DNA from: Paludibacter sp.
GTDB taxonomy: Bacteria > Bacteroidota > Bacteroidia > Bacteroidales > Paludibacteraceae
Direction of reading: 5' to 3'
Length of the DNA: 64,000 nt
Assembly (NCBI GenBank): GCA_023666945.1
Contig: JAMPAY010000006.1
Coordinates: 1 to 64,000, forward strand
The translations under genes and the position numbers were made by a program. Shown piece after piece: positions 4,999 through 43,184 of the stretch. The notes under the pieces were generated by a model. That model saw only the letters and a program-made list of their open reading frames with translations. It was not told the origin of the DNA and ran no database searches. Every line of letters begins with the position of its first letter. Position 1 is the stretch's first letter.

Positions 4999-5003
4999 AG
5001 CAT

Positions 5004-6242
5004 TTACTTAGACCAAAAGAAGGGGTCGGCAGGTTGTTCGGGCAAGAAATCGTTGGTAGAATTGTTGGTGTCTTGCAGTACACGGCGTTCGGACAAGATG
5101 GTGGCTACTTTACGGCGTACACACTTGCCGTAGCGCGTTTTGTCGTTGCCGAGGGTAGCGACATAGGTGTATCCTGCGTCTAAGGAGGTAGAGACTACCG
5201 TCCAGGCATAGGTAGCACTTGGGCAGAGATTGACGGCATCGATCACCCACTCGTTGGGGACGAGATAGGTAGTAGCCGTCATTTGGAAGGTGCCTGCAGA
5301 AGTAACATTGATATAATCGTAATCTTGCTTATATTGCACCAGATAGTCTTCGTCGGACAAGCCTTGCGGCATGCGTGCTAAAGCGATAGAGGTGTTGCCT
5401 TGGTTGTTGGGTCCCCAGATAGTAAGAGTATAGCAATAGACTTTTTGGAGGTTCTCTACGGCAGGATTGTCGACATCAAGCACCTTGGGATTGGTGGATT
5501 CGTCGTACCACTCGAAATCGGCTTGGCTCAGATTGAAAGAGTTAGGATTGGCTTCGCAGTGGTTCATAGCGTTGTCTACCAAAAGGAGGTGTCCGCCCGG
5601 TAGTACGGGATAGGTCTGTCCGTCGCCGGGGATGCGATAGATAGCATCTGCGCCAAAGGAGTGGTTGCGGAAATCGGGTGTAAGAGTTAACTTCTGTGTG
5701 TTCTTGAGTTTGGACTCCAGAAGAAGCAATCCGTCGGCATAGAGGGTACGGGAAGAGTTGTTGTAGAGGACAAAATATTTGTCTCCCACATACTGCTTGC
5801 CTTCATCGGTAAGTGTGCCTGCGAAGAAAATCTCTGCCAAAAGAAAATCCTCTTGTATATCAGTGATGTTGGCATCCATATGGAGGGTTGTATTGGCAGA
5901 TACATGCACGCCTTGGAGATAGCCTTGCACGAGGTGGGAAGTGGTGTCTTGGCGTAGTGTAGCCGTGAACCGAAGGTCGTAGTAGCCTGCGGTGAGCAGG
6001 AGAGAGAAACTCAACGGTGATGTGGTACTCTCGTTGGTAAAAGTGGTGGTAGTACCCATATTCAGGTCTTGCACCTGCATTTGCACCTCTTGCAAGACGG
6101 CATCGGGGATAGCGTCCATGGCTGCGACACGCACATCGAGCAAGACGTTGTAAGTGTCTTGCATTGTTTCATTGCACCCCATGAAACAGAGAGGCAACAG
6201 AACATAGATAAAGTTTCTCAGTATTTTCATTGTATTCGTCAT
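5004..6242 (-). CDS. DUF4876-type lipoprotein
   Basis: 412 residues. There are two possible starts; the first (6242) forms a TAATG overlap with the receptor stop, like other joints in this operon. The leader ends in the lipobox FMGC with Cys23, so it is a lipoprotein, probably surface- or outer-membrane-attached. An N-terminal Ig-like segment (about 30-130) is followed by the DUF4876 region, which has FAGTLTDEGKQYVGDKYFVLYNNS near residue 155. Genes of this family typically sit beside a TonB-dependent receptor, as here. It is probably a surface partner that captures ligand for the receptor; the ligand is unknown. Confidence 0.75.
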   Translation of the reverse strand: MTNTMKILRNFIYVLLPLCFMGCNETMQDTYNVLLDVRVAAMDAIPDAVLQEVQMQVQDLNMGTTTTFTNESTTSPLSFSLLLTAGYYDLRFTATLRQDTTSHLVQGYLQGVHVSANTTLHMDANITDIQEDFLLAEIFFAGTLTDEGKQYVGDKYFVLYNNSSRTLYADGLLLLESKLKNTQKLTLTPDFRNHSFGADAIYRIPGDGQTYPVLPGGHLLLVDNAMNHCEANPNSFNLSQADFEWYDESTNPKVLDVDNPAVENLQKVYCYTLTIWGPNNQGNTSIALARMPQGLSDEDYLVQYKQDYDYINVTSAGTFQMTATTYLVPNEWVIDAVNLCPSATYAWTVVSTSLDAGYTYVATLGNDKTRYGKCVRRKVATILSERRVLQDTNNSTNDFLPEQPADPFFWSK

Positions 6243-27125: not shown

Positions 27126-28049
27126 CTAATCGAACCAGCAGCGGCATACCGAATGACGACGATGCGGAATGCGATAGGAAACCCCCAATTCCAATCCGAC
27201 AGAAAAAGCGTGCGCCTTATCTCCGATGAGTGATGTATTCAAGAGGTTGGTATAGTTCGGCATAAAAGCGTGTATTTCGTCCATCCCAGGGCGGTCGTTG
27301 CGGAAACCGATATCCTCCTGAAGCAGATTGGCAGGAAGATTGTTGGTAAGTCCTGCCGTACAAGAGAGTGCACACGTGAAATCAAGATGTGCCATAATAG
27401 GCACAGCCACTCCCACTTTAAGAAACGCAGCCCACATATCGCGGAAATCGGCATTCGCAGACGGTGTAAAATCGGACGTGGAATAGAATCCATAAGGTGG
27501 CAAATCGTAGAGAAGCAGATGCCACTTGTCGTACCAGCCCGTATGTGAAACTATTCCCGTTGCCTTTGTAGAGCCAGACAAAGCGAGTCCGTATTTAGCC
27601 CCGACATCGAATGTGAGCCGAATATTATCGAGCGGCACAGAGAATCGGAGTGCAAGAGGTATTTCGACATAAAGGGCATTGTGGCGTTCTCTCCATTGGT
27701 TAAGATGCAGATGATGGTCGTAGATTTCGCCATCGGTATCAAAAACCCCTACCCATGTATATTCTTCGGGCAAATGCAGTGTAGCCCCATAGCGTGCAAA
27801 ATCGGCCCCGACAGATAGACCAAAGACGGGGGTAAAAAAGAATGTATAGCCCACATGTGCCGTAAGTCCCCACGAACCCGTATTCGCCATATCCTCCGCC
27901 ATTGGGCGATAGGAAATGGTGCTCCATCCTCCACCTATTGAGATGTCGAAAGCCGAGGAAGTTCCCATATGCGGATTGCGCCCCCATAGCGCAGAACAGG
28001 ACAAACAACAGAACAATAATATGGTGATATGACATTTTTTCATTGACAT
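27126..28049 (-). CDS. Outer-membrane beta-barrel protein, paralog of the STN-OmpA barrel
   Basis: 307 residues (or 305 from a second ATG). The leader ends near SALWG. The body is a 12- to 14-strand-type barrel. It resembles the barrel of the STN-OmpA protein four genes upstream: DTDGEIYDHHLHLNQWRERH against DSDGESYTHYALTHKWREQQ, VEIPLALRFSVPLDN against VELPVGVQCQYPLND, and a WYDKWHLLLYDL / YYPQWDMLVTDL block. It lacks the STN and OmpA domains. Last gene of a four-gene locus; 8 bases separate it from the secreted protein upstream. Its role is unknown. Confidence 0.75.
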   Translation of the reverse strand: MSMKKCHITILLFCCLSCSALWGRNPHMGTSSAFDISIGGGWSTISYRPMAEDMANTGSWGLTAHVGYTFFFTPVFGLSVGADFARYGATLHLPEEYTWVGVFDTDGEIYDHHLHLNQWRERHNALYVEIPLALRFSVPLDNIRLTFDVGAKYGLALSGSTKATGIVSHTGWYDKWHLLLYDLPPYGFYSTSDFTPSANADFRDMWAAFLKVGVAVPIMAHLDFTCALSCTAGLTNNLPANLLQEDIGFRNDRPGMDEIHAFMPNYTNLLNTSLIGDKAHAFSVGLELGVSYRIPHRRHSVCRCWFD

Positions 28050-28057
28050 GACGACTC

Positions 28058-29653
28058 CTATTTAGCGATGAGTTTATGCAATTGCGATTGGCCTGTTGTG
28101 CTATACAGACGCAGCAAATAGACTCCCTCTCCGGCAATAGTCAGCCAATTGTCGCCAAGCAACAGTTTACCCACTGAAAGCAACATACCATTGGGAGCAA
28201 AGAGCACATATTCTTGCCATACACTATCGGAAAGATTGATTTGCACACGGTTGCCCACTATACAGATTCGGAACGGCGGCTGTTGGTTATAGGTATCGGC
28301 ACTACGCGGTATGTCGGCATAAGGCAGTTGACAGGAGCAATGTTCTTCGCCTGCAAGCGTAGCAGCACAGACATGAAAAAGTGCCGTTTGTGTAGCGACA
28401 CCCTGTGTGGAGGGGAAATAGAGGAACTGCTTATTTTCTCCTGTAAGCGGTGCACCATTGCAATACCACTGATAGGAAACAAACATATCGGCAGCATTAT
28501 CACAAAAGAGGACATCTTCCCATTTGGCATAGAGCATATTGTCGTAGCAGACAGGTGATGGAGGTAAGGGACGTTCGCAATGAAGGGTATCAAGCACACG
28601 TATGTGCAAGATACTATCGCATCCACGAGGGCTATATTCGATCCACTGCATGGTGTCGGGCTGTGTAAAAGTATATCCTTCCCATAGATAAGGCAACAAT
28701 GTATCGCACAGAAGAACCGATTGTTCATCGGTTTGCACAGCGGGACACGGAGGTGTACAATCGTGCGGTTCAATGATAAAGACACACTCGTGAATAACCA
28801 CATTATCGACCATAGTTGTTTTTTGGAACATGATATCGTCCAAACAAAAATCGTTACCTCCCTCGGATTGATTTTGGTCGTAGACTCCGATAGTGACTTC
28901 TGCAGACGAGACAGGGGCTATCCATGTGATTTCTTGCAGTTCCCACGCATTGAGCGGTGAGATATTGCCCAAGGTGTGTGGCGCGCCAAGATTATAGGTA
29001 TGCGTTTGTCCCGCAGGATCTTTACAGATGATAACAAACTGCAGACGTGCCGGTGAATTGTTGGGGCTTTTGTTGGGATAGGCAGCCCAATAGGAGAAAA
29101 GGTAGGCGGAGTCTTTTTCTAAAATCAACTGCGGATTATTACTCGTTTCGGCTTTCCAAGCATAGCCCGATTTACCGGCATCGAAGAGTGCAAAATAGTT
29201 GCCTCCATGCGGACGAACCGGATAGAAATCTTTCCAAAAATAGGAGGCGTCTTGCGTGATTGTATAAAGATTGGATGCCCCTCCGTGCGTAGCATAATAC
29301 TGCGAGGGATTCCAACCTGCATACTGATAATCAGAGGTAAAACCGACTGGCGGATTAGCCTCGAAATCGCCATTTGCCATAAGATTGTGCAATGCGCTGA
29401 CGGTTTTTTCGGCTATAGAGCAGACATAGGTGGCCGTTTCGTCGGCATTAATGATGATTGTACGTGTATCGAAGTCAAGCGGTTGCCCATCTTTTGTCCA
29501 CATATAGGCATCGCCTGCCACCGTTGCCGTGAGCACCTGTTGCGAACCGATACAAACAGACGAGCGTACGATAGTATCGGACGGAATCTGACAACAGACC
29601 TTCTCAAAAGAGAGGATGCTCAACACAATTATTGTTCCCCACAAACGCCTCAT
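28058..29653 (-). CDS. Secreted protein with MAM/CBM-like module and T9SS-type tail
   Basis: 531 residues; signal peptide about 1-22. A PKD/Ig-like strand region (about 25-85) is followed by a 190-residue module (about 88-280) starting NLMANGDFEANPPVGFTSDY and ending GGNDFCLDDIMFQKT, a jelly-roll-like carbohydrate- or ligand-binding type. Then come a Cys-rich segment (HDCTPPCPAVQTDEQSVLLC), the block YAKWEDVLFCDNAADMFVSY..QWYCNG that often precedes sorting tails, and a C-terminal domain, VYLLRLYSTTGQSQLHKLIAK, like the type IX secretion signal. It is probably surface-attached or released. Its neighbour upstream is a paralog. Confidence 0.75.
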   Translation of the reverse strand: MRRLWGTIIVLSILSFEKVCCQIPSDTIVRSSVCIGSQQVLTATVAGDAYMWTKDGQPLDFDTRTIIINADETATYVCSIAEKTVSALHNLMANGDFEANPPVGFTSDYQYAGWNPSQYYATHGGASNLYTITQDASYFWKDFYPVRPHGGNYFALFDAGKSGYAWKAETSNNPQLILEKDSAYLFSYWAAYPNKSPNNSPARLQFVIICKDPAGQTHTYNLGAPHTLGNISPLNAWELQEITWIAPVSSAEVTIGVYDQNQSEGGNDFCLDDIMFQKTTMVDNVVIHECVFIIEPHDCTPPCPAVQTDEQSVLLCDTLLPYLWEGYTFTQPDTMQWIEYSPRGCDSILHIRVLDTLHCERPLPPSPVCYDNMLYAKWEDVLFCDNAADMFVSYQWYCNGAPLTGENKQFLYFPSTQGVATQTALFHVCAATLAGEEHCSCQLPYADIPRSADTYNQQPPFRICIVGNRVQINLSDSVWQEYVLFAPNGMLLSVGKLLLGDNWLTIAGEGVYLLRLYSTTGQSQLHKLIAK

Positions 29654-29667
29654 GTTAACTGTCAGTT

Positions 29668-31563
29668 TTAGAATATCACTCGTTTTTCGGCTTTCACTGT
29701 ACCATCATCGTAGGTGGTGATAATCAGATAGAAATTAGTCGAAACGGGATAGAGACGTCGTGCAACTTCCACTTGTGGCGTTTCGGCAGGATAGATTTGT
29801 GCAGAGGCCTCCGCTTGCTTAAAAGTAGTGTGACACGACTCGGTATCGCCATTGACGACCACCCAGAACTCATCGGTTGCAGCCGGAGATTCGGGCATAC
29901 GATAGTATTGCCCAGTAGCCCCTGCCACGGCCTGACCATTGCAGTACCACTGATAGGAGGAATACAGCCCTTCGCTATTATCGACAAAAAGGAAATCGTT
30001 CCACTTGCGATAAACCTCCAACGTACAATCGGGCTCGGAACAGTCTTCGACCGTAATGAGAAAACGATTGGTGAAAGCGACACGGGATTCGCTATACGAA
30101 ACCGTTTGAAACATGATATCGTCCAAACAGAAATCGTTGCCTGTGCCGCTATTGGGATTAAGGTCTTTCACCCCAATCATAACATTGACTGATGTTGCAG
30201 GTGCTTTCCAGGTAACTACTTGCTGATGCCATTCGTTGTCGTCGGTAGGCAAGAGATAAGGATTGCCGAGATTCTCCTCGACCCCATCGTAGGCGATAAC
30301 AAACTGCAACTCGGCAGGCGAATCGCTTTGCGATGTTTCGTTGGGATGTGCCGCCCAATAGGAGAAATAGTAGATAGAATCTTTCATGATGATAAGATTC
30401 GGATTGTCTTTTGTATGGTCGGTTGCACATTCGGTTTCGGCCTTCCAGGCATAGCCCGATTTTCCGGCATCGAAAAGTCCGAAATAGTTACCACTATGCG
30501 GTGTGATAGGTGCATAACTCTGCCAAAACCAGTTGGCATCGTCGGTTAGAGTATAGAGGTTAGATGTTTCGGGATGAGCAGCATAGTAGTTGTTTTCGTT
30601 GGCTACATAAGCGTAGTCGGATGTAAATCCGACATTGTCTTCGAAATCACCTCCCAACATAAGATTGCGTTCGGCATTAACAACGGTTTTATAAGCCGTA
30701 ACTTCCACCTCGAAAGTGCCCTCTTTGTCGGTGGGGAAAATCAGGGTACGCCCGGTAGCATCATCTGATACAACATTGGCGGCAGTCCACGCATAGACTT
30801 CCGCTTCCAATTCGGAAGCCAAGACAAGTTCGTCTCCTACACAAACCGTAAGTGCAGTCTGTTTTTCACAAATTGCTTCGGGAGCGGTGACTACCAACGT
30901 TTTTTCTTCCAAGAGCAATGTGCAAGCAGCATCGCTATAGAGACAGACGGTAAAAGACACTTGTTCTTCTTGCTGCATATTCAAGTTGGTGACTTTGTAC
31001 TCATACGGAGAATGGGGTGTTTTAACCACCTTATCTTTTTCGAGTAAAGCACTACTGATACGCAAGCCACAAGGTGCTCCATCGAATGAGATGGTCAGTT
31101 GTGCGGTATAGTTTCCTTCCGCACAATCGTAGACCAAAGTTGCATGCGCATCGGTTAATGCAGTAGCCCCCATGGAAGAAGGAGAAGCAGCCCAATGATA
31201 GGTGCGTCCGTTTTCGGCATCAATAATACAATAGGGCTTGCTTTTAGACCAACCCGTGGCATCTTCGGTATGTGTACTAATCTGTCCTTGAATAGTGGCA
31301 GCAGTTTCAGATTCACTGTAGCAGAAACGGATATTATCTTGCGTAGATGAAGTTGTGGTAAATTGATATACACCATCGTTACCCTCGACAGGTGCCATCT
31401 TATAAGACTTATTATCTCGACTAAGATAAATATAGTAAGACTTTTTGCAACACCAATGTTGCGTTACATCCAAATAGATAACGGCACCTTTGGGTATATC
31501 AGCAAAAACTGTTGCCACAGCAACAACTGTAAGAATGAGTAATGTATATATACGTTTTTTCAT
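29668..31563 (-). CDS. Secreted protein, paralog with MAM/CBM-like module
   Basis: 631 residues; signal peptide about 1-21. The N-terminal region (about 22-125) contains VIYLDVTQHWCCKKSYYIYL, a pattern of starch-binding-like or Ig folds. Two further beta regions follow, then a 190-residue module (about 299-488) closely matching the neighbour's (GDFEDNVGFTSDYAYV; FGLFDAGKSGYAWKAETE; NDFCLDDIMFQTV). The block YRKWNDFLFVDNSEGLYSSY..QWYCNG is at about 510-537. The tail is shorter than in the neighbour and ends FYLIITTYDDGTVKAEKRVIF. Same operon: 14 bases to the next gene and 35 to the STN-OmpA gene. Probably a surface protein. Confidence 0.75.
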   Translation of the reverse strand: MKKRIYTLLILTVVAVATVFADIPKGAVIYLDVTQHWCCKKSYYIYLSRDNKSYKMAPVEGNDGVYQFTTTSSTQDNIRFCYSESETAATIQGQISTHTEDATGWSKSKPYCIIDAENGRTYHWAASPSSMGATALTDAHATLVYDCAEGNYTAQLTISFDGAPCGLRISSALLEKDKVVKTPHSPYEYKVTNLNMQQEEQVSFTVCLYSDAACTLLLEEKTLVVTAPEAICEKQTALTVCVGDELVLASELEAEVYAWTAANVVSDDATGRTLIFPTDKEGTFEVEVTAYKTVVNAERNLMLGGDFEDNVGFTSDYAYVANENNYYAAHPETSNLYTLTDDANWFWQSYAPITPHSGNYFGLFDAGKSGYAWKAETECATDHTKDNPNLIIMKDSIYYFSYWAAHPNETSQSDSPAELQFVIAYDGVEENLGNPYLLPTDDNEWHQQVVTWKAPATSVNVMIGVKDLNPNSGTGNDFCLDDIMFQTVSYSESRVAFTNRFLITVEDCSEPDCTLEVYRKWNDFLFVDNSEGLYSSYQWYCNGQAVAGATGQYYRMPESPAATDEFWVVVNGDTESCHTTFKQAEASAQIYPAETPQVEVARRLYPVSTNFYLIITTYDDGTVKAEKRVIF

Positions 31564-31598
31564 ATTCGTAGCGTAAGAGTTGAGTGATTTCTATCGGT

Positions 31599-33386
31599 TT
31601 ATTCTACAGGAATAATCTCCGTACGTCGGTCGAGCGCAATAGAGTGTTCGGTACCATTTCCTGCATCGTAGGCTATATCTGCCGCATGTGCTTCAACGCT
31701 AATTTGTTCGGGTTTAGCCCCTTTAGCAATCAGCAAATCGGCCACAGCCTGCGCCCGTTGTTCGGACAAAATACGATTCTTACGTGCATTACCCTCCTTG
31801 CTGGCATGCCCCGATACGATGATTTTCTGTTCGGGATTTTCCACCAAGACAGCGGCTATACGATCGAGAATATCGGCTGGTTCCAATTTAGGTTCAATGG
31901 AGTTGACATCAAACCAAATGACTGATTTATTCATCAAACGCACAATCTGTCGTGCAGCCTCTTGTTTGGGTTTCAGTATTGTTTCCTGTCGTTCGGTTAC
32001 AGAGAACGTTGTATCGCACAGTTGTATGCGCTCGTATTTGGGTTCCGGTTTGCGCGGTTTTTCGACATGATGCCATGATATTCCGACCTTCAGGCCTACT
32101 CCCCACGGACGCACTGCCGATGCAAAATCGGAAGCCAACTCACCCTTGTATTCGTTCATAAAAGCATGCTGACGATAGCCGTTTTGCTCAGCCTGTTGCC
32201 ATCCGACAGGTTGTCGGGATTCGTTATTGAGATCAAGACAATTGACTTGACCATAGACCCCGCACAACAAGTCTAATTGCTTATTAAGCGGAATCATTAC
32301 TCCGAGATCCACTCCTACGGACAATGCTACTTTCTTCAGATTAAGATTGTGACGATCTTTACTAAAATCGTCTCCGATAGTTTCCGTATAGAAGTCGCGA
32401 TCATCCAAATCAGTCACCAACATATCCCACTGCGGATAATAGCCTTGATGCTCCAATGCACCACTCTTCAATTCCCATTTGCTATAAACCGGAACTCCCA
32501 CTCGCACTCCTGCTCCCGCATACAAACGAACATCGGAATCGTTGAGCGGATATTGGCATTGCACACCGACAGGCAATTCGACGATATGCGTTATTTGCTG
32601 TTCACGCCACTTGTGTGTGAGTGCATAGTGCGTATAAGATTCGCCATCGGAATCGCCTATTTTCATACCCTTATATTCCGACCATTCATTACGATTATCC
32701 AACACGCCATAACTACCAAAAGCAGAGAAACCCAAACCTGCCGTGATACCCCAATTCTCGTAGAAATAGTAAGCATATTGCACTTGTAGACCTCCTTGCA
32801 AATCTCCCATGTTTTTACCGACCTTGGTGCCGGAAGCATCTTTCAGTGTATACCCCATAGAGCCATAACCAAGCCCCAGCATTGCCTGTACATAATGTCC
32901 TTTGCGTGTAGGTGCAGGTAAAATGATACTATCGGATTCGATGAGATGCGTTTGTGTACGGCAAGAAACCGACCAGACCGTATCGGCATAGGTTTTGACA
33001 ATTTTTTCGTCGTCTTCCTCTACTTTGTAAGGTTCGGCGGCTACCGACTGATAAACAGTAGGAGGAACCGGCAGATTGGTGATACGGATAACTCCTTTTT
33101 TAGATTTTACCACATATTGTTTACCCAAAATCTTTTTAACAGCAGAAACCGCACTTACTTCTTTGAATTTTTTGTTGACTACCTGCCCTATATCGAGATC
33201 AGCATCCTCAAAATTGATGATGTATCCCGTACGATGTCCAATATCTTGCAAAGCATCTGTCAACGGAGTGTTCACATATGTCTTTGTCAGTTTCTTATAA
33301 GCGGTTTTCTTTTTTTTCTGTGCGGCTTCAGCCCCACCGAAAACCATCAGCAGGCAAAGCAACAACGAAAGTAATCTATTTGTCAT
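31599..33386 (-). CDS. STN-barrel-OmpA fusion protein
   Basis: 595 residues. The signal peptide ends near AEA. Then an STN-like domain (about 28-108: VNTPLTDALQDIGHRTGYII; VVKSKKGVIRITNLPVP), a linker, an outer-membrane barrel (about 163-450) and a C-terminal OmpA peptidoglycan-binding domain (about 490-595: IIVSGHASKEGNARKNRILS, then EQRAQAVADLLIAKGAKP). STN domains usually occur in secretins and in TonB transducers that signal to anti-sigma factors; joining one to a barrel and OmpA is unusual. It may tie a surface structure to the cell wall. First gene of the four-gene locus with a paralogous barrel and two secreted proteins. Confidence 0.8.
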   Translation of the reverse strand: MTNRLLSLLLCLLMVFGGAEAAQKKKKTAYKKLTKTYVNTPLTDALQDIGHRTGYIINFEDADLDIGQVVNKKFKEVSAVSAVKKILGKQYVVKSKKGVIRITNLPVPPTVYQSVAAEPYKVEEDDEKIVKTYADTVWSVSCRTQTHLIESDSIILPAPTRKGHYVQAMLGLGYGSMGYTLKDASGTKVGKNMGDLQGGLQVQYAYYFYENWGITAGLGFSAFGSYGVLDNRNEWSEYKGMKIGDSDGESYTHYALTHKWREQQITHIVELPVGVQCQYPLNDSDVRLYAGAGVRVGVPVYSKWELKSGALEHQGYYPQWDMLVTDLDDRDFYTETIGDDFSKDRHNLNLKKVALSVGVDLGVMIPLNKQLDLLCGVYGQVNCLDLNNESRQPVGWQQAEQNGYRQHAFMNEYKGELASDFASAVRPWGVGLKVGISWHHVEKPRKPEPKYERIQLCDTTFSVTERQETILKPKQEAARQIVRLMNKSVIWFDVNSIEPKLEPADILDRIAAVLVENPEQKIIVSGHASKEGNARKNRILSEQRAQAVADLLIAKGAKPEQISVEAHAADIAYDAGNGTEHSIALDRRTEIIPVE

Positions 33387-33510: not shown

Positions 33511-36144
33511 TCAATATACGACAGCCTTCTGTCTGCCAACCAAATATAAGCCCTGCGGTAGCCTTATACTATTGGCACCCTCTTGCAAAGACATGCGGCT
33601 TACCAAATGACCATCGGCAGCATAGATATCCACTTGTTGTACAATCGGACTATTGATGTAGAGTACGCTATTTTCGCTATACAATACCAATGCCGTACTC
33701 TGCAAATTGTCGGTTGCAGCAGGTACATCTTCGCAAATAAGCGAAACAGTAGAGGTACACTTGATATCGGCTCTGCTTGTACCCGTATATAAACCGTGCA
33801 TAGTAAAACTCAAATCGTTGGTTTGGTTGCCACCATCATTCCATATAATCATCCAATTAGAAGCCACTGCAGGCATAGTTTCGGGCAAGGTAAATTTATA
33901 AGTTCCTCCACCCAAGGATACGGCACGTGAACCAGGCCATCCCGCAGAAAGAGAAGCCCCTCCGTTTACCCACATATAGACATTGATAGAATTTCCCCAA
34001 TCGGCAGGTTTAGTAAAGAACACGGCACGTTCATCAGCAGTTTCCAAGCACGGTGGAGTAGCGGGACCTACGATAGGATCGTCCGCTCCAAAATTATTAT
34101 CCAACTCTTCTTCCGTACCATCCCATTGCGGAGCGGGCACCGACACAGATGATGAGGTATAGATATACTTACCATCGGTACCAATCTTGCCCGGAGCAAC
34201 TGTTTTGGCAGTAGTAAGCACATAGACACGAAGATTACCCTTACCGGAACAAGATGCTGTTAGTGTACCATTGCTAACCGTTTTGACATCTCCCGTAACC
34301 GCATCGGTATATGTTCCGTTAGGAATACCGGTAAAGGTAGCATTCCCCGAAATGGTGATCAAAGCATAACTATCGGTTGCATTATCGGTATAGCGCCGTT
34401 TGAAAGCGAATGTTCCGCTACATCCCGTGGTGCTATACTGCCCTTTACGCAAAGCGGGTACAGCCATACGAATTTGGCTCAATCGACGAATATGCTGTGC
34501 CAACGGATGCGCCAATGTCTGTGCCATATTGCCCGTAGCATTGCTATATTCGGCAAAATCGGTTACATTGGCAGACCCTTTGATATATCCACCAAAATAA
34601 GCACGTCCAGATTCTTTCAAAGCGAGGTTGGGTCCTTCATCAATTGTCTTGCCTTTCTTGAACTCAATTTCGGAACCATAGTATACACAAGGAATACCAC
34701 GGAACGTGTACATCAGACTGAGATTTTCAGCCCATGTATCCTGACTCTGTGCAAAGCGTTGGCTCTCGGGAGCACCATCGGGAGCATAGTCGTGCGAATC
34801 GACATATACAACATTCCATGTGGCATCGTTGTAATACTTATCACCCGACTTTACTCCCCATGCTTCTGCCGCACTGCGAAAATTCCAGTGCATGGGGAAA
34901 TCAATCACACTAAAGCCCGAATATTGGCTATAGTCAGGCGTATGGTAGTCGTTGCCATTGAGCAAAGCATTTTGCGAAGTAAGCATACCTTGATCGTCGG
35001 AATAGTCGGTACCTTGTTTATCGACCGAGAGGATGTTGGTATGATTGCCTTTCTGCCCCTCCATTACCACGAGTTTGTCCCATGAAGTTTCGCTATTGTC
35101 CCACGCATAATTTTTAGTTTCTTTCCATGTGTAGAAATAGGGAGAAAGGTTTTCTTGATTACGATACGTCACATCACGCGCACGCGCACAGACTTCTCCA
35201 TACATAAAGAAATCGCCGCCATTACGTTTGGCTTTATATTGTTCCGCTAATGCTTGGAACTGAGGAATAAAGGCGTTATTGAATGTCAAGCGAGAGATGT
35301 GTCCGCTTGTATCAATGCGGAAACCATCTACACCCATCTTTATAAATTCGCCATAGCAACGCACCAAGTAATTATACACTGCAGGGTTCTCGGTGTTCAA
35401 ATCGACACAATCGCCAGCAATCTGTCCATACCAACGGCTGGGCAAATCCCAGTTCCATTCGTTACCGACATGGTGCCAATAGTTGTGCATATCGTAGTTT
35501 ACTCCCGATGTATTCTTCATTTGCTCTAAACGCGCATCATATTGCAACCCACTTGCCAAGGACAGATAGTTGTCGGGTAATTTACCGCCTTCGCTTTTGG
35601 TATAGGGAATCATACACGCATTGATATCGCTTTGGTCGGCACTCCAATCGCGTTTAAAGAGTTTGCACAAATTTTCTTCTCCGAAATTACCCGTATGATT
35701 CAGCACAATATCCAATATAATCTTCATTCCTCGAGCATGAGCAGCATCTATGACTGATTGGAAATCGACATCATCAGACAAATAGCGTTCGTCTACCTTA
35801 GAAAAATTGGAAGCATGATAGCCATGATAGTCATATCCTGAAGCATTCTCTACGACAGGTGTAATCCATACCGCGGTGAATCCTAAAGCCTTGATATAGT
35901 CGAGTTTCTCTATAAGTCCTTTGAAATCACCTCGCCAAGCGGGATCTCCCACATTCTTGCTTTGCCCATCCCAGCATTGTGTATTGTTACCCGGATCGCC
36001 ATCGTAGAAACGTGTAGTTATTACAAAATAAATCTGTTCATCGCGAAAATCAGTTCTGCTCGGGAACAGCGTTGCTGCCACTGCAGACTGCATCAGACAC
36101 AAAAGCCCCAGAGCCATTGTCAGATATCGAGAAATCCTATTCAT
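33511..36144 (-). CDS. Secreted alpha-amylase, GH13 with CBM26-like module
   Basis: 877 residues; signal peptide about 1-23. The GH13 barrel has all catalytic regions: DIVLNH (145-150), GFRID with nucleophile Asp278, proton donor Glu317 in MYGEV, and VDSHD with Asp452. A beta-sandwich domain C lies at about 560-650. A starch-binding CBM26-like domain (about 705-785) reads FFTKPADWGNSINVYMW, NGGASLSAGWPGS, WMIIWNDGGNQTNDL. The end (VDIYAADGHLVSRMSLQEGA..LPQGLYLVGRQKAVVY) resembles a type IX sorting domain. It hydrolyses alpha-1,4-glucans outside the cell or on its surface. Unlike sus loci there is no SusC/SusD. The following secreted proteins carry related starch-binding modules. Confidence 0.92.
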   Translation of the reverse strand: MNRISRYLTMALGLLCLMQSAVAATLFPSRTDFRDEQIYFVITTRFYDGDPGNNTQCWDGQSKNVGDPAWRGDFKGLIEKLDYIKALGFTAVWITPVVENASGYDYHGYHASNFSKVDERYLSDDVDFQSVIDAAHARGMKIILDIVLNHTGNFGEENLCKLFKRDWSADQSDINACMIPYTKSEGGKLPDNYLSLASGLQYDARLEQMKNTSGVNYDMHNYWHHVGNEWNWDLPSRWYGQIAGDCVDLNTENPAVYNYLVRCYGEFIKMGVDGFRIDTSGHISRLTFNNAFIPQFQALAEQYKAKRNGGDFFMYGEVCARARDVTYRNQENLSPYFYTWKETKNYAWDNSETSWDKLVVMEGQKGNHTNILSVDKQGTDYSDDQGMLTSQNALLNGNDYHTPDYSQYSGFSVIDFPMHWNFRSAAEAWGVKSGDKYYNDATWNVVYVDSHDYAPDGAPESQRFAQSQDTWAENLSLMYTFRGIPCVYYGSEIEFKKGKTIDEGPNLALKESGRAYFGGYIKGSANVTDFAEYSNATGNMAQTLAHPLAQHIRRLSQIRMAVPALRKGQYSTTGCSGTFAFKRRYTDNATDSYALITISGNATFTGIPNGTYTDAVTGDVKTVSNGTLTASCSGKGNLRVYVLTTAKTVAPGKIGTDGKYIYTSSSVSVPAPQWDGTEEELDNNFGADDPIVGPATPPCLETADERAVFFTKPADWGNSINVYMWVNGGASLSAGWPGSRAVSLGGGTYKFTLPETMPAVASNWMIIWNDGGNQTNDLSFTMHGLYTGTSRADIKCTSTVSLICEDVPAATDNLQSTALVLYSENSVLYINSPIVQQVDIYAADGHLVSRMSLQEGANSIRLPQGLYLVGRQKAVVY

Positions 36145-36239: not shown

Positions 36240-39200
36240 CTATTGTACTTGGCGTCCTTGTACATCATACAGATGAGTTCCTTTCTGTATATACAAGCGA
36301 CCATTGATTATATATTTACGAATCAGGTTATCATCGCTACCCACATTGTCACCAGCAGTAACGATATGTTGTTGCGGTTTGATCTCTAATACAAAACGTT
36401 GTTCGAAAGACCCCGGCTGCAACATGGTCGTATAGTTACTTAGCAATAAATCGGTTCGCGCACCTATTTCCATATCAAGCAAGTTGACACTCAAACCGTC
36501 GGTACCATCGGGCAATGCGAACGTGTATTCTCCTGCCTCCGCAATGCTTACTCCCACAACGATATTCTTCTGCTGTTGCGGCATAGGTTGTACATTGGCA
36601 GCAACACGGATGTCATTTGAACCCGTGAGTGTATAGAGATTAGCCCCGGCATTATCCTGCTTGGATAAATCGACATTCAAGTCGAATTCTTCAGAAGCCC
36701 CCTCTTCTTGGAAGCGTACATAGGCACAATCGAGGGTTTTAGCGTTCTGCTGCAAAGTGAGACGCAATGTAGCGACCTTATTCTTCGCCTCTACACGGCG
36801 TGCGCGTATGGCTTGAGGATAAATCTCTCCCGCAGCCTCCGGTGTCATCCAATCGATGTCGCCCGCATACTGCACCATATAAGAATACATACTATTGAAT
36901 TTCAGCGGGTCGGTTTCCGACACGATAAACTTACTATTTGCCGCATCGTATTCGTACATAAAGCCTATGATGTGTTCACCCATATCTACGGGTAGTTGCG
37001 GATTGGTAAGTTGGTCGATATTAGCAAAGGAGGGAGCACCTATAAGATTCCAGTTAGAATCGTATATATACCGATTATCGCGCTCAATGGTACATATATA
37101 GGAGGGATAGGAAATAGTTTTGACCACACCACTAATAGGCATCGGTTCTTTATTGGCCGATGGGAAATACAAACATACATCTGTATTGCCCGATGTAAAA
37201 GAACGTGACAATATACGTTGCCAATCGAGAACCACTACATAGCCTGCACCTTCGTGAAGCGTTATGCCGTTGGTTTCTTCGTAATATTTCCAATAGGAGG
37301 GAGAGTCGCTCCAGCATCCGTTGGCAGCACGCGCAGCCCCATCGTAATATTGTATCATATAATCGTTACCATACTCCAGACCACCGCCAAATACTTCAGA
37401 GAGCAACACATCGAACGGGAAAGTTACCCAATAGACGCTCTTCTCTTTAGCAGGAGCCGTACTCTGCAGATAGTCTTTTGTTATGGAGAGCACACAGTAA
37501 GCATTTTTCACCTTAGCGATTTCGCGTACGTTCGGATTAAAGGTTAGTTGTTCCGCCTCTTGATGGTTCTCTCGAATAATCATTAAATCGGTTTCTATCT
37601 CGTCGTCAGCCGTTATCTCGTTGCCACCTACCAACCATGCACAGATAAGGTGATTTGTTTTGAAGTCGTAGAGTACACGTACCTTATAGGGATGTTCTCC
37701 CTCTTGCTTACCCAAGATAAGCGGATACATATTTTCATCGCTATAATCGCCAGCCATTCCCTTGAAATATTGGTCGTGTCCTTGATAAGGAGCCAACACT
37801 TTTACAAGCGCATTAGCAGAGGCATATATATCGGCACGATAGACCCAGTTTTGCCTATCCTGCAAACATATTTTAGTTTGCAATGTATTGTCCTTACCAT
37901 AGATACCGTTTTTGCTTAACAATTGCACATTTTCACCTGCACCTGCCAAGTAAGCACGATTCAGACTATTGTCATAAGTATTCCACATGAAACGGATATT
38001 TGCATCGTTGGTCAGTTTACCATCCGCCCCTACAAAGCCATTCTCTTGCTCATAGTTATTTCTTACAAGCGTATCGCTCAAACAGTAACTATACGGATTG
38101 GCCACGGTAAAGCATATATCGGTACCTTTCGTAACCCATTCGCAATAGTAGTAATCGAATGTTTCGTAATTCTTTGCATATTCGGAATAATAAATTCTAT
38201 TCATCACATTCCCCACATAATCTTCATCTGCAAAACCGACACCTCCTCGCCTTGTTGCGGCATCGGAGCGAATATAATACGTACCTGTGTAAGGATAGAT
38301 CAGACTTATATGCGGATTATCTTCTCCGTTTTGTTCTATCACAAAATTGTACACTCCATTGCCTGTGACGGCATCGGTGTTATGCACATTGGTGACACTG
38401 ATGGTGGTCCATTCTCCTATTGTTTCCGGCAAGTACTGTTGCAGCCACACCTCGCAATTATTGGTATTTGCTGATTCTACTCCTGCAGCATCTTTCTGCA
38501 TAGGACGCACATGCAAACTTAAGGTGTCGCACATAGGATTGTCGGTCGTGGCATATCTGCGGACAGCAACACTGTGCGTAGGATGGAACACTACATTGCC
38601 GCCGGCATTGCGTTCGACATACACTAAGCGATATTCCGCATCGGGCAAAGCATCGAAACCAATAATTACCTTACCATCTTCCAAATACAAATGCAAAGTA
38701 TAAACACCCGAACGTTGCGGAGCGAAAGTTACATAAGATGCAGCCTCAGCCCAATTATCCCAACGATAGAGTTGGTATTGTGCTTCAGTACCATATAAAG
38801 TTGCATCGTTGCCGGCACTGAAATATTCATTACGATCGTTTTTCAGGTAGAGTGAATAGGTCTTTCCCGCCGTTGCCGTAATCTGAGCAGAGAAAACAAA
38901 GCCACCTGCCACATCAGCCGTAAAGGCTTTTTGGGTTTCGCGATTATCTTCAAGCGACATCAGATAGTAGCCAGACAAGACAGAGTTATATTTCATCCAT
39001 ATACCCGCATCGTAGTATTTCGTTTCATTAACGGTAGTATAATTGCTACCTCGTTCATGGATAAACAACGGCATATCGGTATTGAAGTCTCCCCTATGCA
39101 CGGCTTCCGTTTTATAGAATTCTCCGTAGTCATTTTGGTTATCCTTGGTAAAAGTAAGGTACTGAACGGTTGCCGTTTGTTGTAATGTATAAGCGTATAC

Positions 39201-40808
39201 ATCATCACCGACCTTATTCATTTGCCCATACTCTATGCGGTTTTGTTTCGGATGTACTCCCTTGCCGTCTTCCCAAGGATTGGCAGAGAAAGTAAACAAA
39301 TAGGGATTATCCCAACCTAAATCGTTCTTCTTAAAATAGATAGCAGGTACTTCCACAAACTTTACATAGACTTGATTGTTGGTTTGGCTAACACTCATTG
39401 TATAGGTTTGTGCCGTTCCCGCTTCCGATATGCGTTCTGTAGCCTCCCAATTGCGATACCACCCTTCGACTGTATAGCCGGTTGCAGGGGTGGCAGTAAA
39501 CGCAGCAGAAGATACCGTCTGTCCGGATTCGATGATAGAACCGCCCGACTGAGCCGTAAGCGTTCCTCCCACATTGCCAATTACTCCAAAACTTATCGGA
39601 TAGAGAGAGGGTTGTATTTTTGTCAGTGTAATAGTTCCTTTTGCCGGATCCAGTGTAAAGATTGCGGAATCGCCCTTTTGCACTCCATCAGGGTTACCCA
39701 AGTTGTTTTGCGGAATCCATTTTGCGCCCGCATCCTGCGACGTTGTATTCCAATTACAACCATCAGCCCCATATGTATTGCGTAACGAGTAAGTGCCATC
39801 GCCATTAGGAGTCAATTCTACCCAAGACCAATTATTATCACCCTTAAAGGGATGCTTAATGTAATAGGTAATCGGTGCAGTGACGGTTACTTGCACATCG
39901 AACGTAGCGGAACACCCATCGGGCGTAACTGCCGTTAGTGTAAGTGTATAGGTCCCTTCCGTAGCGGATCGGAAAACAGGAGTAAGCGATGTGTCATCTT
40001 TAAGTGTACCAGCCGTTGTTGTCCATGTATATATACAATTGTCAGGCGTTACCACGATGCCCGTGATCTGCAAATTCTTATTTATTTCCGTAATAAACGA
40101 TGCAGTACCACCGATTGTGGGAAACGTACACGTTGTAGGCAAGGTAGTGGAAGCACAAATAATAGGTTTATCGGTAGTATTCACCGAAGTATTCGGATGG
40201 TACACTAAGATATACAAAGCCCGCGTATCCCAATAGTAGCAATTATCATGTCCATAATCTCCGATGTTGGTAACATCCGTACCATTAAAACCTGCTTGCA
40301 CATAACTATAATTGTAATCATACCCATTTGCAGACAAAGCGATTTTAAATTTTCGTGCATTGTCATCGGAAGAAGCATTACAGTAATAATAAGAATAGGT
40401 TTTATCGTCACCTAATGTCATTTGCGTAGCCCCCCAACCATTCATACCTCCACGATAATAGTAAGGACTATCATTATTACCTGCCTCTTCTCCGAATCCC
40501 TGCTGCCATCCATCCTTATAATAGGTATTTTCGGCATTAATGATAAGGTTTCCCGTCTGACTGCCGCTGTTGTTATTATTGAAGATAATATTGGATGTTT
40601 TTGTTTCATCCACTTCGATAGAATACCAACCATCATGACCGGGAACCAAGTTCATTTGCTTACCCGGCCAGCCTCCAAATGTTTCGGGCGAAAATGTGTA
40701 TGCCGCCACTTGATTCCAGTTGTTGGAATTGTAATAATATATGGTGATTGCATTGACAACAGAGGAGAGTAACGTCAAGAGGCAAAGGAAACCTAATTTC
40801 TTCTTCAT
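36240..40808 (-). CDS. Giant multimodular surface protein with starch-binding modules
   Basis: 1522 residues, no catalytic domain seen. Signal peptide 1-20. A CBM26-like module (20-100) has WPGKQMNLVPGHDGWYSIEV and IIFNNNNSGSQTGNL. A second starch-binding-like fold (about 115-225) has YYRGGMNGWGATQMTL. Then a PKD-like domain (about 228-312), a 'KHPF' module (about 315-398) also found in the protein at 41499-43184, and an InlB-like repeat (about 403-486: GYTVEGWYRNWE). A long beta-rich remainder includes repeated 'YTLQQTATVQYLTFTKDN' type segments. The short tail is RKYIINGRLYIQKGTHLYDV plus QGRQVQ. Probably a surface scaffold or capture protein for starch, working with the GH13 amylase next to it. 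It is 95 bases from that gene. Confidence 0.78.
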   Translation of the reverse strand: MKKKLGFLCLLTLLSSVVNAITIYYYNSNNWNQVAAYTFSPETFGGWPGKQMNLVPGHDGWYSIEVDETKTSNIIFNNNNSGSQTGNLIINAENTYYKDGWQQGFGEEAGNNDSPYYYRGGMNGWGATQMTLGDDKTYSYYYCNASSDDNARKFKIALSANGYDYNYSYVQAGFNGTDVTNIGDYGHDNCYYWDTRALYILVYHPNTSVNTTDKPIICASTTLPTTCTFPTIGGTASFITEINKNLQITGIVVTPDNCIYTWTTTAGTLKDDTSLTPVFRSATEGTYTLTLTAVTPDGCSATFDVQVTVTAPITYYIKHPFKGDNNWSWVELTPNGDGTYSLRNTYGADGCNWNTTSQDAGAKWIPQNNLGNPDGVQKGDSAIFTLDPAKGTITLTKIQPSLYPISFGVIGNVGGTLTAQSGGSIIESGQTVSSAAFTATPATGYTVEGWYRNWEATERISEAGTAQTYTMSVSQTNNQVYVKFVEVPAIYFKKNDLGWDNPYLFTFSANPWEDGKGVHPKQNRIEYGQMNKVGDDVYAYTLQQTATVQYLTFTKDNQNDYGEFYKTEAVHRGDFNTDMPLFIHERGSNYTTVNETKYYDAGIWMKYNSVLSGYYLMSLEDNRETQKAFTADVAGGFVFSAQITATAGKTYSLYLKNDRNEYFSAGNDATLYGTEAQYQLYRWDNWAEAASYVTFAPQRSGVYTLHLYLEDGKVIIGFDALPDAEYRLVYVERNAGGNVVFHPTHSVAVRRYATTDNPMCDTLSLHVRPMQKDAAGVESANTNNCEVWLQQYLPETIGEWTTISVTNVHNTDAVTGNGVYNFVIEQNGEDNPHISLIYPYTGTYYIRSDAATRRGGVGFADEDYVGNVMNRIYYSEYAKNYETFDYYYCEWVTKGTDICFTVANPYSYCLSDTLVRNNYEQENGFVGADGKLTNDANIRFMWNTYDNSLNRAYLAGAGENVQLLSKNGIYGKDNTLQTKICLQDRQNWVYRADIYASANALVKVLAPYQGHDQYFKGMAGDYSDENMYPLILGKQEGEHPYKVRVLYDFKTNHLICAWLVGGNEITADDEIETDLMIIRENHQEAEQLTFNPNVREIAKVKNAYCVLSITKDYLQSTAPAKEKSVYWVTFPFDVLLSEVFGGGLEYGNDYMIQYYDGAARAANGCWSDSPSYWKYYEETNGITLHEGAGYVVVLDWQRILSRSFTSGNTDVCLYFPSANKEPMPISGVVKTISYPSYICTIERDNRYIYDSNWNLIGAPSFANIDQLTNPQLPVDMGEHIIGFMYEYDAANSKFIVSETDPLKFNSMYSYMVQYAGDIDWMTPEAAGEIYPQAIRARRVEAKNKVATLRLTLQQNAKTLDCAYVRFQEEGASEEFDLNVDLSKQDNAGANLYTLTGSNDIRVAANVQPMPQQQKNIVVGVSIAEAGEYTFALPDGTDGLSVNLLDMEIGARTDLLLSNYTTMLQPGSFEQRFVLEIKPQQHIVTAGDNVGSDDNLIRKYIINGRLYIQKGTHLYDVQGRQVQ

Positions 40809-40875
40809 GGTTGTAAAGTTGAGTATTCTTTTTATACTATCTATAATCGCCGTTTTTCTATCAGCGTACGTATTT

Positions 40876-41316
40876 TTAATTTTGCAGTTTGTTGCGTCGT
40901 ATAAAGCATACGACCATATATCCCAAGGCCAATACTACTAAAGCCCAGGCATCACCTATAGGTGATTCTTTACTACGGTTAGGGTCGTCATCGTCAGATG
41001 ATCCCATACCCATACCGCCAAATGCCTTACGTTTTACCATTCCTTCACCAAATGCCTCTTGCGCCGCATAAGTGCTTGGCAGTTCAGCGGCAAACGGGGC
41101 GTAGATGGTAGACACATAAATGCCTGCAACACGTACTGATGATGCAGTACTGTTGCCACTTGCAGTTCCTGCCGTTCCTGTAATGCCCATTTCTGCCCAC
41201 CCAATACTATACGCACTATTGCTTATCTCCACAAGGGGGCGACAAGCATACTGAACAGCATACACTGAAGGCATACAGCCAAACAAGACTGCAATAATTA
41301 AATATTTTGTTTTCAT
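40876..41316 (-). CDS. Small exported protein with C-terminal membrane anchor
   Basis: 146 residues from ATG 41316 (MKTKYLIIAVLFGCMPSVYA leader; an earlier ATG has no leader). The mature part is rich in Gly, Ala, Ser and Thr, with a basic patch and DDDD. It ends in SPIGDAWALVVLALGYMVVC followed by FIRRNKLQN: a short motif, one membrane helix and a basic end, the layout of sorting signals such as PEP-CTERM. No sortase or exosortase is in view. It lies between two starch-binding protein genes, and its role is unknown. Confidence 0.65.
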   Translation of the reverse strand: MKTKYLIIAVLFGCMPSVYAVQYACRPLVEISNSAYSIGWAEMGITGTAGTASGNSTASSVRVAGIYVSTIYAPFAAELPSTYAAQEAFGEGMVKRKAFGGMGMGSSDDDDPNRSKESPIGDAWALVVLALGYMVVCFIRRNKLQN

Positions 41317-41457
41317 GGTAGAGGTACTAATAGCGTGCCTGCAACCTCTATGCAGACACCTCATATTGCAAAGCCTTTCCTATAATCTCGATTGTCAGAC
41401 GACAACCGTATCCACAAAGCACCGAAACAAATCACATCGGTGCACAGAAAGAGAAAA

Positions 41458-41493
41458 AGACCGGTCTCCCACACACACTAAGAAGACCGGTCT
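41458..41493 (-). terminator. Terminator of the CBM26-like gene
   Basis: Two copies of AGACCGGTCT (41458-41467 and 41484-41493), each itself palindromic, able to pair as a 10-bp stem. On the minus strand a T-rich run follows. It lies just past the stop at 41499. Confidence 0.75.
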
Positions 41494-41498
41494 CGTAA

Positions 41499-43184
41499 TC
41501 AGAACACCACAATTTTTTCGGTTGCAGTACCGATGCGCACAATATACACACCAGTTGTCAGATTACGGCTGTAATTGGCGGTAGTTTGTGCATCTATAAC
41601 CTGTCCACCAACGGTATAAACCGCAACGGGAGCAGCATTGTCAAGCATAATCGCCAAATTTCCATTCGACACTGCAAGTACATATTCGGCAGTCAAATTA
41701 TCGAGTGCAGTTCCCGATTTTGTCACATACGAAAGGGTAAGCGTAGCATCGGAATTTGCCACCAACGTAAAGTCAACCTGTACATTACCCGGAACGAACA
41801 ATTTTTCTTTTCCACCAGCAAGCGTATTAACCAATACAGCAGGAGATTCTCCGGCATATTCCATTGCCATATACCAATTCTGATTATCTCCCGTTTTAAT
41901 AAACACATACGAATCGGCAGTAAATGTAGCCGTCAACTTTCCGTCTACGAATTTATATTCGCCCGTATTATCAGCATCTGCCTCTATTCCATAGTCGGCT
42001 CCGTTGATATAGCCCACCAAATAATAATCGCCATTCAGTTCTACCGTTTTTGTTACCGTCATTTGCTTGGTATCTTCCAATGCTTGCTCAAGTCCATCGC
42101 CCGTAACAGTAACTTTGACTCCATACACACCTTCTACCTCGGGCGTATACGTATTACCCTCCAAAGCAACATACTCGGAAGTACCGGGCGTTTGTACGCT
42201 ATAGATATATACAGGATTGGAGACATTGGCAGATGTAGCACTAAACTCAACCTTTTCACCAATAACAGCAGATGTGGGAACAGTGAGATAGACAGCAGGA
42301 GTTTCGTCGGCAACAATGCTCAAGGAAGCAGTCGTTGCATCGTATACATAAGTAACCATAACACCTGTAATTGCAGGGCAGTTGCTTATGTCGTCTGCGG
42401 GAAACCATTTGGCACCAGCATCATTCATTTCAGTATTAACATTCGCACCTGTACCTTGCCAATAAGCATCCAGAGTAAAGGTATTATCCGTATTTTTAGC
42501 CATTGCTTTCCACTCCCACGTACTGCCATCGAAAGGATGTTTCAAATACATAGCCTCCGGAGTAACCACTACAATTTCTCCAGTAAAGCCGTTGGTCCAT
42601 CCATTGTTATAGTAAAGATTTTCAGCATCCACAATCAAGTCATCCGTTTGATTTCCGGCACCTCCTTCACCCTTATTGAAGATGATTTTTTCAGGAAGCC
42701 CCCCTCTAAAATCGATAGCGTACCAACCGGCTTGTTCCGTTACGGGCGACATTTCATCACCGGGCCAACCTGCCGTAACAGCACTACCGCCCCAACCATA
42801 AGCATATACTTTGTCCCAATTATTCACATTATTGTAATAAACGGTATACGTTTCAACAATCACTTCTCCATCGAATCCTGTAGTCCAACCCTCATTATAA
42901 TAAGGTTTAGCAGCATCGATAGTCAAATTGCCTGTTTGCGAACCCTTATTATTGTTATTGAAAATAATACTGGACGTTTTCGTTTCATCCACGTCGATAG
43001 AAAACCAACCTTCGTGGTCAGCAACAGCAGTCATCACCGTTCCCGGCCAAGTTCCAAGCGTTTCCGCGCTAAACGTGTAGGCAGCAACTTCCTGCCAATT
43101 ATTGGTGTTTTTGTAAAAGATTGTCAGCGCATTAGCCGCCATAGACAACACGGCAAAAGCCAACATAAGAGTAATTTTCTTCAT
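41499..43184 (-). CDS. Secreted protein with two CBM26-like modules and a KHPF module
   Basis: 561 residues; signal peptide 1-19. Two starch-binding CBM26-like modules: 20-100 (WPGTVMTAVADHEGWFSIDV; IIFNNNNKGSQTGN) and 112-198 (GWPGDEMSPVTEQAGWYAID; IIFNKGEGGAGNQTDDL). A 'KHPF' module (about 211-291: YLKHPFDGSTWEWKAM, DAGAKWFPADDI) is followed by an Ig-like domain (about 295-390) and a beta-rich C-terminal part ending in a type IX-like tail (TTGVYIVRIGTATEKIVVF). The first module is very close to that of the 1522-residue neighbour, so they share ancestry. Likely binds starch at the surface. First gene of the leftward cluster; possible -7 element at 43262. Confidence 0.8.
   Translation of the reverse strand: MKKITLMLAFAVLSMAANALTIFYKNTNNWQEVAAYTFSAETLGTWPGTVMTAVADHEGWFSIDVDETKTSSIIFNNNNKGSQTGNLTIDAAKPYYNEGWTTGFDGEVIVETYTVYYNNVNNWDKVYAYGWGGSAVTAGWPGDEMSPVTEQAGWYAIDFRGGLPEKIIFNKGEGGAGNQTDDLIVDAENLYYNNGWTNGFTGEIVVVTPEAMYLKHPFDGSTWEWKAMAKNTDNTFTLDAYWQGTGANVNTEMNDAGAKWFPADDISNCPAITGVMVTYVYDATTASLSIVADETPAVYLTVPTSAVIGEKVEFSATSANVSNPVYIYSVQTPGTSEYVALEGNTYTPEVEGVYGVKVTVTGDGLEQALEDTKQMTVTKTVELNGDYYLVGYINGADYGIEADADNTGEYKFVDGKLTATFTADSYVFIKTGDNQNWYMAMEYAGESPAVLVNTLAGGKEKLFVPGNVQVDFTLVANSDATLTLSYVTKSGTALDNLTAEYVLAVSNGNLAIMLDNAAPVAVYTVGGQVIDAQTTANYSRNLTTGVYIVRIGTATEKIVVF

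Follow-up and report, generated by a model that had tools for sequence, protein, structure and literature searches.

Organization of the locus

The window, that is, the whole 64,000-nt stretch of DNA that was analysed, lies on contig 25 of assembly G000, a Bacteroidales genome of 2.08 Mb from a gut-type bacterium. Within it, four open reading frames on the minus strand, transcribed in the order A, B, C, D, are separated by intergenic gaps of only 35, 14 and 8 bp, and this tight spacing suggests that they may form a single transcript. The open reading frames and the paralogies described below agree with the preliminary description of this DNA, made from its letters only, as a four-gene locus in which two barrels flank two secreted paralogs. 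The genes and their upstream neighbors are:

31599..33386, minus strand: gene A, 595 aa, with signal peptide, STN domain, predicted 8-stranded outer-membrane barrel and OmpA-like domain (open reading frame, Pfam, model and relatives)
29668..31563, minus strand: gene B, 631 aa, putative secreted cargo protein (open reading frame, paralogy with C, model)
28058..29653, minus strand: gene C, 531 aa, putative secreted cargo protein, paralog of B, with a type A-like tail of the type IX secretion system (T9SS) (open reading frame, paralogy)
27126..28049, minus strand: gene D, 307 aa, free outer-membrane barrel with a Cys-X-Cys C-terminal tail (PF13568, OMP_b-brl_2, E 5e-8; paralog of the barrel of A)
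33511..36144, minus strand: secreted GH13 alpha-amylase with CBM26, the upstream neighbor, giving a starch context (domain search)
36240..43184, minus strand: further upstream, genes for a 1522-aa protein with CBM26 and PKD domains, for a small protein and for another CBM26 protein, which has a T9SS tail (domain search)

Downstream of D, a gap of 248 bp precedes grpE and dnaJ, named from their sequence. In locus L092 the place of the amylase gene, ahead of A, is occupied by a gene for a WG-repeat protein (3811-5526), and L028 has a gene of similar size.

Protein A combines an STN domain, a barrel and an OmpA-like domain

Three domains were delimited in A:

33075..33290, minus strand: STN domain, residues 33-104 (PF07660 in relatives; secondary structure E-H-E-E-H-E-E in the model)
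32067..32909, minus strand: predicted 8-stranded barrel, residues 160-440 (model; structure comparison Z 15-18 to OmpA/NspA-type barrels)
31602..31949, minus strand: OmpA-like domain, residues 480-595, with motif GHAS (PF00691, E 5e-16; motif survey)

Full-length relatives of A show 36-83% identity to it, and PF07660 matches 16 of 26 relatives (best E 6e-6), with the window copy giving no PF07660 match at E<1 in the Pfam search. An AlphaFold model of A as a single chain, built on an alignment of 26 rows (mean pLDDT 84, pTM 0.52), predicts an STN-like pattern of strands and helices, then eight transmembrane strands lying between residues 163 and 439 and then the OmpA domain, although with so low a pTM it gives no placement of the domains relative to each other. 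The architecture first assigned to A from its letters is thus borne out, including the STN fold, whose absence had been named as an argument against it. Two cysteines, C142 (window positions 32961-32963) and C457 (32016-32018), are situated in the linkers on either side of the barrel, in predicted long strands. In locus L090 (G239, contig C48, 8.6-10.4 kb) an in-frame TAG inside the barrel splits the homolog of A, which may be a pseudogene or reflect an assembly error.

Proteins B and C are paralogous putative T9SS cargo

B and C are 52% identical over residues 238-513 of B (E 8e-70) and have in common an Ig-like stretch, a jelly roll of ca. 190 residues, corresponding to the shared module of that length noted earlier, and a second Ig-like module, here called YRKW. 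Their parts are:

31174..31521, minus strand: N-terminal module of B, with distant similarity to the starch-binding CBM26 modules encoded upstream (hhalign, 70% probability, E 4e-5; suggestive only)
30100..30666, minus strand: jelly-roll, carbohydrate-binding-like module of B, residues 300-488 (CBM_4_9 in 11 of 62 relatives; CBM16/22/4 by Foldseek)
29764..30027, minus strand: YRKW Ig-like module of B, residues 513-600 (common to 62 of 62 cargo proteins, with two invariant Cys; Ig_2 in 12 of 62)
28784..29410, minus strand: jelly roll of C, residues 82-290 (52% identity to that of B)
28289..28573, minus strand: YRKW Ig-like module of C, residues 361-455 (sequence comparison)
28061..28291, minus strand: tail of C resembling a T9SS type A sorting domain (by eye; under the HMM cut-off, which its positional orthologs in L094 and L100 exceed)

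The modeled jelly roll of B resembles CBM16, CBM22 and CBM4 structures, with target-normalised TM values of ca. 0.6-0.77 in Foldseek. B and C are probably carbohydrate-binding proteins, and their ligand is probably starch. Genes neighboring the relatives encode SusC/SusD/GH97, GH3 or GH36 proteins, and therefore the target polysaccharide probably varies among them. Elsewhere in the genome, another protein with a YRKW module is encoded on contig C20 (586-867) in an open frame of 943 aa.

The sorting-type tails that the preliminary description gave to both secreted proteins were compared with profile HMMs. No match over the cut-off of the T9SS tail HMMs, which is 23 bits for type A (TIGR04183), was obtained with the window copies of B and C, and the tail of C is type A-like by inspection. 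Proteins encoded between A and D in related loci do exceed the TIGR04183 cut-off (36.5 bits in L094 and 44.3 bits in L100), as do 23 of the 62 cargo relatives. There was no type B tail (TIGR04131) among the matches listed for the 62 cargo proteins, and the single TIGR04131 protein of the genome is encoded on contig C21.

Gene D ends in a conserved twin-cysteine tail

The barrels of A and D are paralogous, with 28% identity (E 2e-21) in a search within the genome; they had been described as such, and a lack of any relation between them had been named as counter-evidence. By homology to the barrel of A, that of D is probably 8-stranded. The strongest clue to the mechanism is a feature that the preliminary description missed, the C-terminal Cys-X-Cys of D:

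27138..27146, minus strand: C302-R-C304, periplasmic twin-cysteine tail of D (ortholog alignment; background count)

The protein terminates in ...HRRHSVCRCWFD, and the two cysteines are situated just past the last strand. C304 is conserved in 24 of 24 aligned orthologs and C302 in 23, the remaining one having a CxC in a shifted register. A CxC occurs within the last 22 residues of 39 of 41 free D-type barrels, versus 3 of 412 other proteins. The C-terminus of outer-membrane barrels points to the periplasm.

In Flavobacterium johnsoniae, the C-terminal CxC tails of SprF and PorG are disulfide-bonded to Cys343 of GldK, a residue reported to be invariant in GldK/PorK (PMC12635249). The genome studied here encodes a PorK, in which the cysteine of a GCFLANF motif aligns with P. 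gingivalis PorK and, from the alignment and its spacing, is the likely equivalent of Cys343. By analogy, we infer that D could form a disulfide with PorK. The motif has at least two origins on the barrel tree, as judged from the starred branches, and the wider, order-level relatives of the barrels mostly do not have it; a link to PorK therefore cannot be general to the pairing of these barrels with YRKW proteins.

Other components of this machinery were also located. The PorP of the genome has no cysteine tail, and a separate gene on contig C8 codes for a DUF6089 protein, which we take to be PorG, with a CxxC tail. A GldJ-like protein scored under its family cut-off. A third D-like barrel, ending in CxxC (GNCVICKD), is encoded on contig C22 (81262-82164; L244, 7263-8165) close to a GldJ-like gene; its neighborhood is kept in genome G101, where the barrel ends in CVFC, and includes no YRKW partner. 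This barrel is a candidate for another disulfide client of the track. A plasmid search with D yielded one weak match, in Persicobacter.

The OmpA-like domain has lost the peptidoglycan-binding aspartate

Peptidoglycan-binding OmpA domains carry a GHTD motif, whose Asp binds DAP, and this motif is found in three other OmpA proteins of the same genome. The corresponding motif in A is GHAS, with Ser at the position of the Asp, and among barrel-OmpA relatives the fourth position of GHxD is Ser in 49 of 71, Cys in 22 of 71 and Asp in none. In the order-wide set, the barrel-OmpA proteins mostly have Cys at this position, with a single one having Asp. The replacement of Asp by Cys (GHAC/GHTC) occurs in L110, L172, L183, L189, L202 and others, and this is often the sole cysteine after the barrel; speculatively, it may act as a further disulfide hook in OmpA-type members. 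The substitutions also suggest that the OmpA-like domain of A may have a ligand other than the cell wall.

These data bear on the reading proposed in the preliminary description, in which the locus builds a surface structure tied to peptidoglycan: the OmpA-like domain of A would grip the cell wall, both barrels would present B and C, and the CxC of D would serve a local purpose, for instance by linking D through a disulfide to A or to another copy of D. We consider this explanation unlikely, although it is the best of the alternatives. The OmpA fold speaks for it, since the domain compares with peptidoglycan-binding domains of Pal/OmpA at Z ca. 15 and the Arg of the motif is retained, but the loss of the Asp in 71 of 71 relatives, while the three other OmpA proteins of the genome retain GHTD, makes a cell-wall tie doubtful. 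Disulfide-linked OmpA oligomers do exist in Bacteroidota, as in P. gingivalis (PMC12635249), and the post-barrel linker of A contains one cysteine in nearly all the loci that also hold D. A disulfide between this cysteine and D was attractive because of that co-occurrence and was dropped because the second linker cysteine shifts oppositely in L094: there, C142 and C457 move in opposite ways, according to both sequence and model, as an intramolecular pair would, so that an internal disulfide on antiparallel strands of A is likelier than an A-D bond and the pair is more likely an internal staple. Additionally, in L197, L198 and L201 the CxC barrels have no OmpA-type partner nearby. The part of the earlier reading that makes B and C surface components is supported.

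Barrel genes are associated with YRKW genes throughout the order

The gene set recurs in the genus, where roughly two dozen loci combine A and D with one or two YRKW proteins, and is thus not unique to this strain, answering the earlier suggestion to look for the same order in other genomes. The YRKW protein between A and D ranges from ca. 172 residues (L097-L102, L108, L127) to more than 900, and alternative orders exist, such as X-A-D (L095, L096) and X-D-A-X (L103-L105, L109, L111, L172). A YRKW gene likewise adjoins many OmpA-type barrels that lack STN, as well as some lone CxC barrels. Of 99 barrel genes collected solely on the similarity of the barrel and located away from contig ends, 91 have a same-strand YRKW gene no more than 700 bp away and three more do so through a partner barrel (94 of 99), although genomes of one genus are not independent and these counts overstate the number of independent cases. 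In an order-wide search, the D model matched 64 of 393 genomes and 43 of 206 genera, and a YRKW gene was present within 1.5 kb in 27 of the 29 loci fetched, a set spanning many families and genera. No YRKW module was found in 50 control loci (193 kb), which included T9SS genes and four other OmpA genes. The preliminary description had missed this order-wide link between barrel and YRKW proteins as well.

The periplasmic end of the barrel varies beside the same cargo. In L197, L198 and L201 a barrel ending in CxC lies next to a cargo gene for ca. 1151 residues, whereas in L189, L190, L202, L203 and L183 the orthologous barrel carries an OmpA domain and lies next to an orthologous cargo gene; between the two groups, the cargo proteins are 43-63% identical over most of their length and the barrels 43-56%. 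OmpA-type and CxC tethers therefore replace each other beside orthologous cargo, as expected if the barrel binds the cargo and its periplasmic end is the tether. Barrels of the same exchange group in L199, L200 and L196 have neither OmpA domain nor CxC, and possess single-Cys tails such as NCGKPDIPPTEYRR.

This association weighs on the idea that the four genes work separately, A and D being structural proteins of the common OmpA type and B and C standard T9SS cargo, carried by PorV, that share an operon by chance. OmpA-like barrels are indeed abundant structural proteins, and type A tails are normally carried by PorV (PMC12618676). Nevertheless, the adjacency across many genera, its absence from the controls and the maintenance of the barrel and cargo pair while the tether changes make a chance association improbable, and more so than the cell-wall reading.

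The weakest explanation, that the STN of A relays a surface signal, namely starch held by B and C, to an anti-sigma factor in the manner of FecA/FecR or SusC-type transducers, draws on the relaying role of STN domains in TonB receptors, on weak FecR_C scores in eight relatives of A and on the neighboring starch genes, but we rejected it as very improbable because no FecR was found in the genome (98.85% complete), which argues against the classical STN role, nor in six of eight genomes tested, and an 8-stranded barrel has neither plug nor TonB gating. We found no support for secretin or FecR-type signaling by this domain. STN and D were lost jointly in two comparable lineages, and their gain and loss could be compared in three independent pairs only (two in the same direction, none opposite, one undecided), too few for significance.

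A proposed model for barrel-anchored surface proteins

The most likely reading, to which we give about an even chance, is that the barrels anchor carbohydrate-binding proteins exported by the T9SS, with D hooked to PorK. B and C would be exported through the T9SS and displayed on the cell surface, where their jelly rolls, together with the CBM26-like module of B, would bind polysaccharide, probably starch, near the amylase and the CBM26 proteins. Binding of B and C by the barrels is inferred from the evidence of association: each cargo protein would be held by one of the two paralogous 8-stranded barrels, through its YRKW module or the adjoining tail, much like SprB by SprF and PG1035 by PorP. 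The Cys-X-Cys of D would be disulfide-bonded to the conserved PorK cysteine, and D with its cargo would ride on, or be fixed to, the PorKN ring or track. The STN and OmpA-like domains of A could provide another contact in the periplasm, whose partner is probably a protein because the peptidoglycan-binding Asp is gone. The outcome might be either plain anchoring or force-driven movement. Several facts run counter to this anchoring model: the dedicated carriers published so far are 14-stranded barrels of the PorP type whose cargo has type B tails, and the locus shows neither feature; type A cargo normally needs PorV alone; the window copies of B and C stay under the T9SS tail cut-off; and the wider relatives of the barrels mostly lack CxC.

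A wider proposal, which we advance tentatively and with less confidence than the anchoring model, is that the 8-stranded barrels, paired with YRKW proteins across Bacteroidales, constitute a second class of carriers for T9SS cargo that has no relation to PorP/SprF, and that some of those in this genus have swapped an OmpA-like tether for a twin-Cys hook like that of SprF. In bacteria that have no known gliding adhesins, the PorKN machine would then carry, or hold by disulfides, dedicated surface proteins such as polysaccharide-binding ones.

A 2025 report described disulfide coupling to GldK/PorK for just two outer-membrane proteins, SprF and PorG; in gliding bacteria the GldK structure moves, and the Cys-X-Cys hook bolts surface proteins to this moving internal track (PMC12635249). 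With this locus a family of independent candidates for GldK/PorK clients joins them, each encoded beside the gene for its own secreted partner, and these candidates occur in a genome without any SprF-like gene beyond the core porP. If the anchoring model is correct, the track or ring would carry surface proteins besides the gliding adhesins. T9SS proteins of type A-like appearance would also gain a candidate dedicated membrane anchor, and the model would account for an order-wide and apparently undescribed gene pair.

Comparison with known systems

The preliminary description knew of no described system with this gene order, and our search of the open-access literature likewise found no description of the barrel-YRKW pair, which could be described elsewhere. 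BamP-type subunits of BAM were also considered, but BamP is reported to be a protein threaded through the BamA barrel and not a barrel-OmpA protein. The closest counterparts of A in architecture are OmpA and Pgm6-Pgm7, which also have an 8-stranded barrel followed by an OmpA domain, but A differs from them in its N-terminal STN, in the loss of the DAP-binding Asp and in having a dedicated secreted neighbor.

D resembles PorG (DUF6089) in its predicted 8-stranded barrel and its cysteine-pair tail, which in PorG is disulfide-bonded to GldK (PMC12635249). Unlike PorG, D has a secreted partner gene, and its membership in this family was rejected because it gave no DUF6089 match at E<1 and the genome contains the separate DUF6089 gene.

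In their mode of working, the proteins of the locus would resemble SprF-SprB and PorP-PorE-PG1035 (PMC9143113, PMC12618676). As in PorP-PorE-PG1035 of P. gingivalis, there is a barrel, an OmpA-type periplasmic tether and a secreted surface protein (PMC9143113); unlike that system, A fuses barrel and OmpA domain in one protein, adds an STN domain, belongs to another barrel family and has an OmpA domain without the peptidoglycan-binding Asp. A PorP and a single type B protein are encoded in the genome, both away from the locus. Membership of PorP/SprF was rejected, as there is no TIGR03519 match, no 14-stranded barrel and, among the matches listed for the cargo, no type B tail: TIGR03519 is not among the best 25 matches of A, the core porP, on contig C4, is its sole match genome-wide, D has no NCBIfam match at E<1, and the model of A has eight transmembrane strands versus 14 in PorP/SprF carriers.

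SprF is a 14-stranded barrel of the PorP family and SprB has a type B tail, whereas the barrels described here are predicted to be 8-stranded and do not match TIGR03519, and their cargo, unlike SprB, has YRKW modules and type A-like or shortened tails. Nevertheless, as in SprF-SprB of F. johnsoniae, the gene for an outer-membrane barrel lies beside that for a large secreted protein, and D, together with 39 of 41 free barrels, shares with SprF the periplasmic Cys-X-Cys tail.
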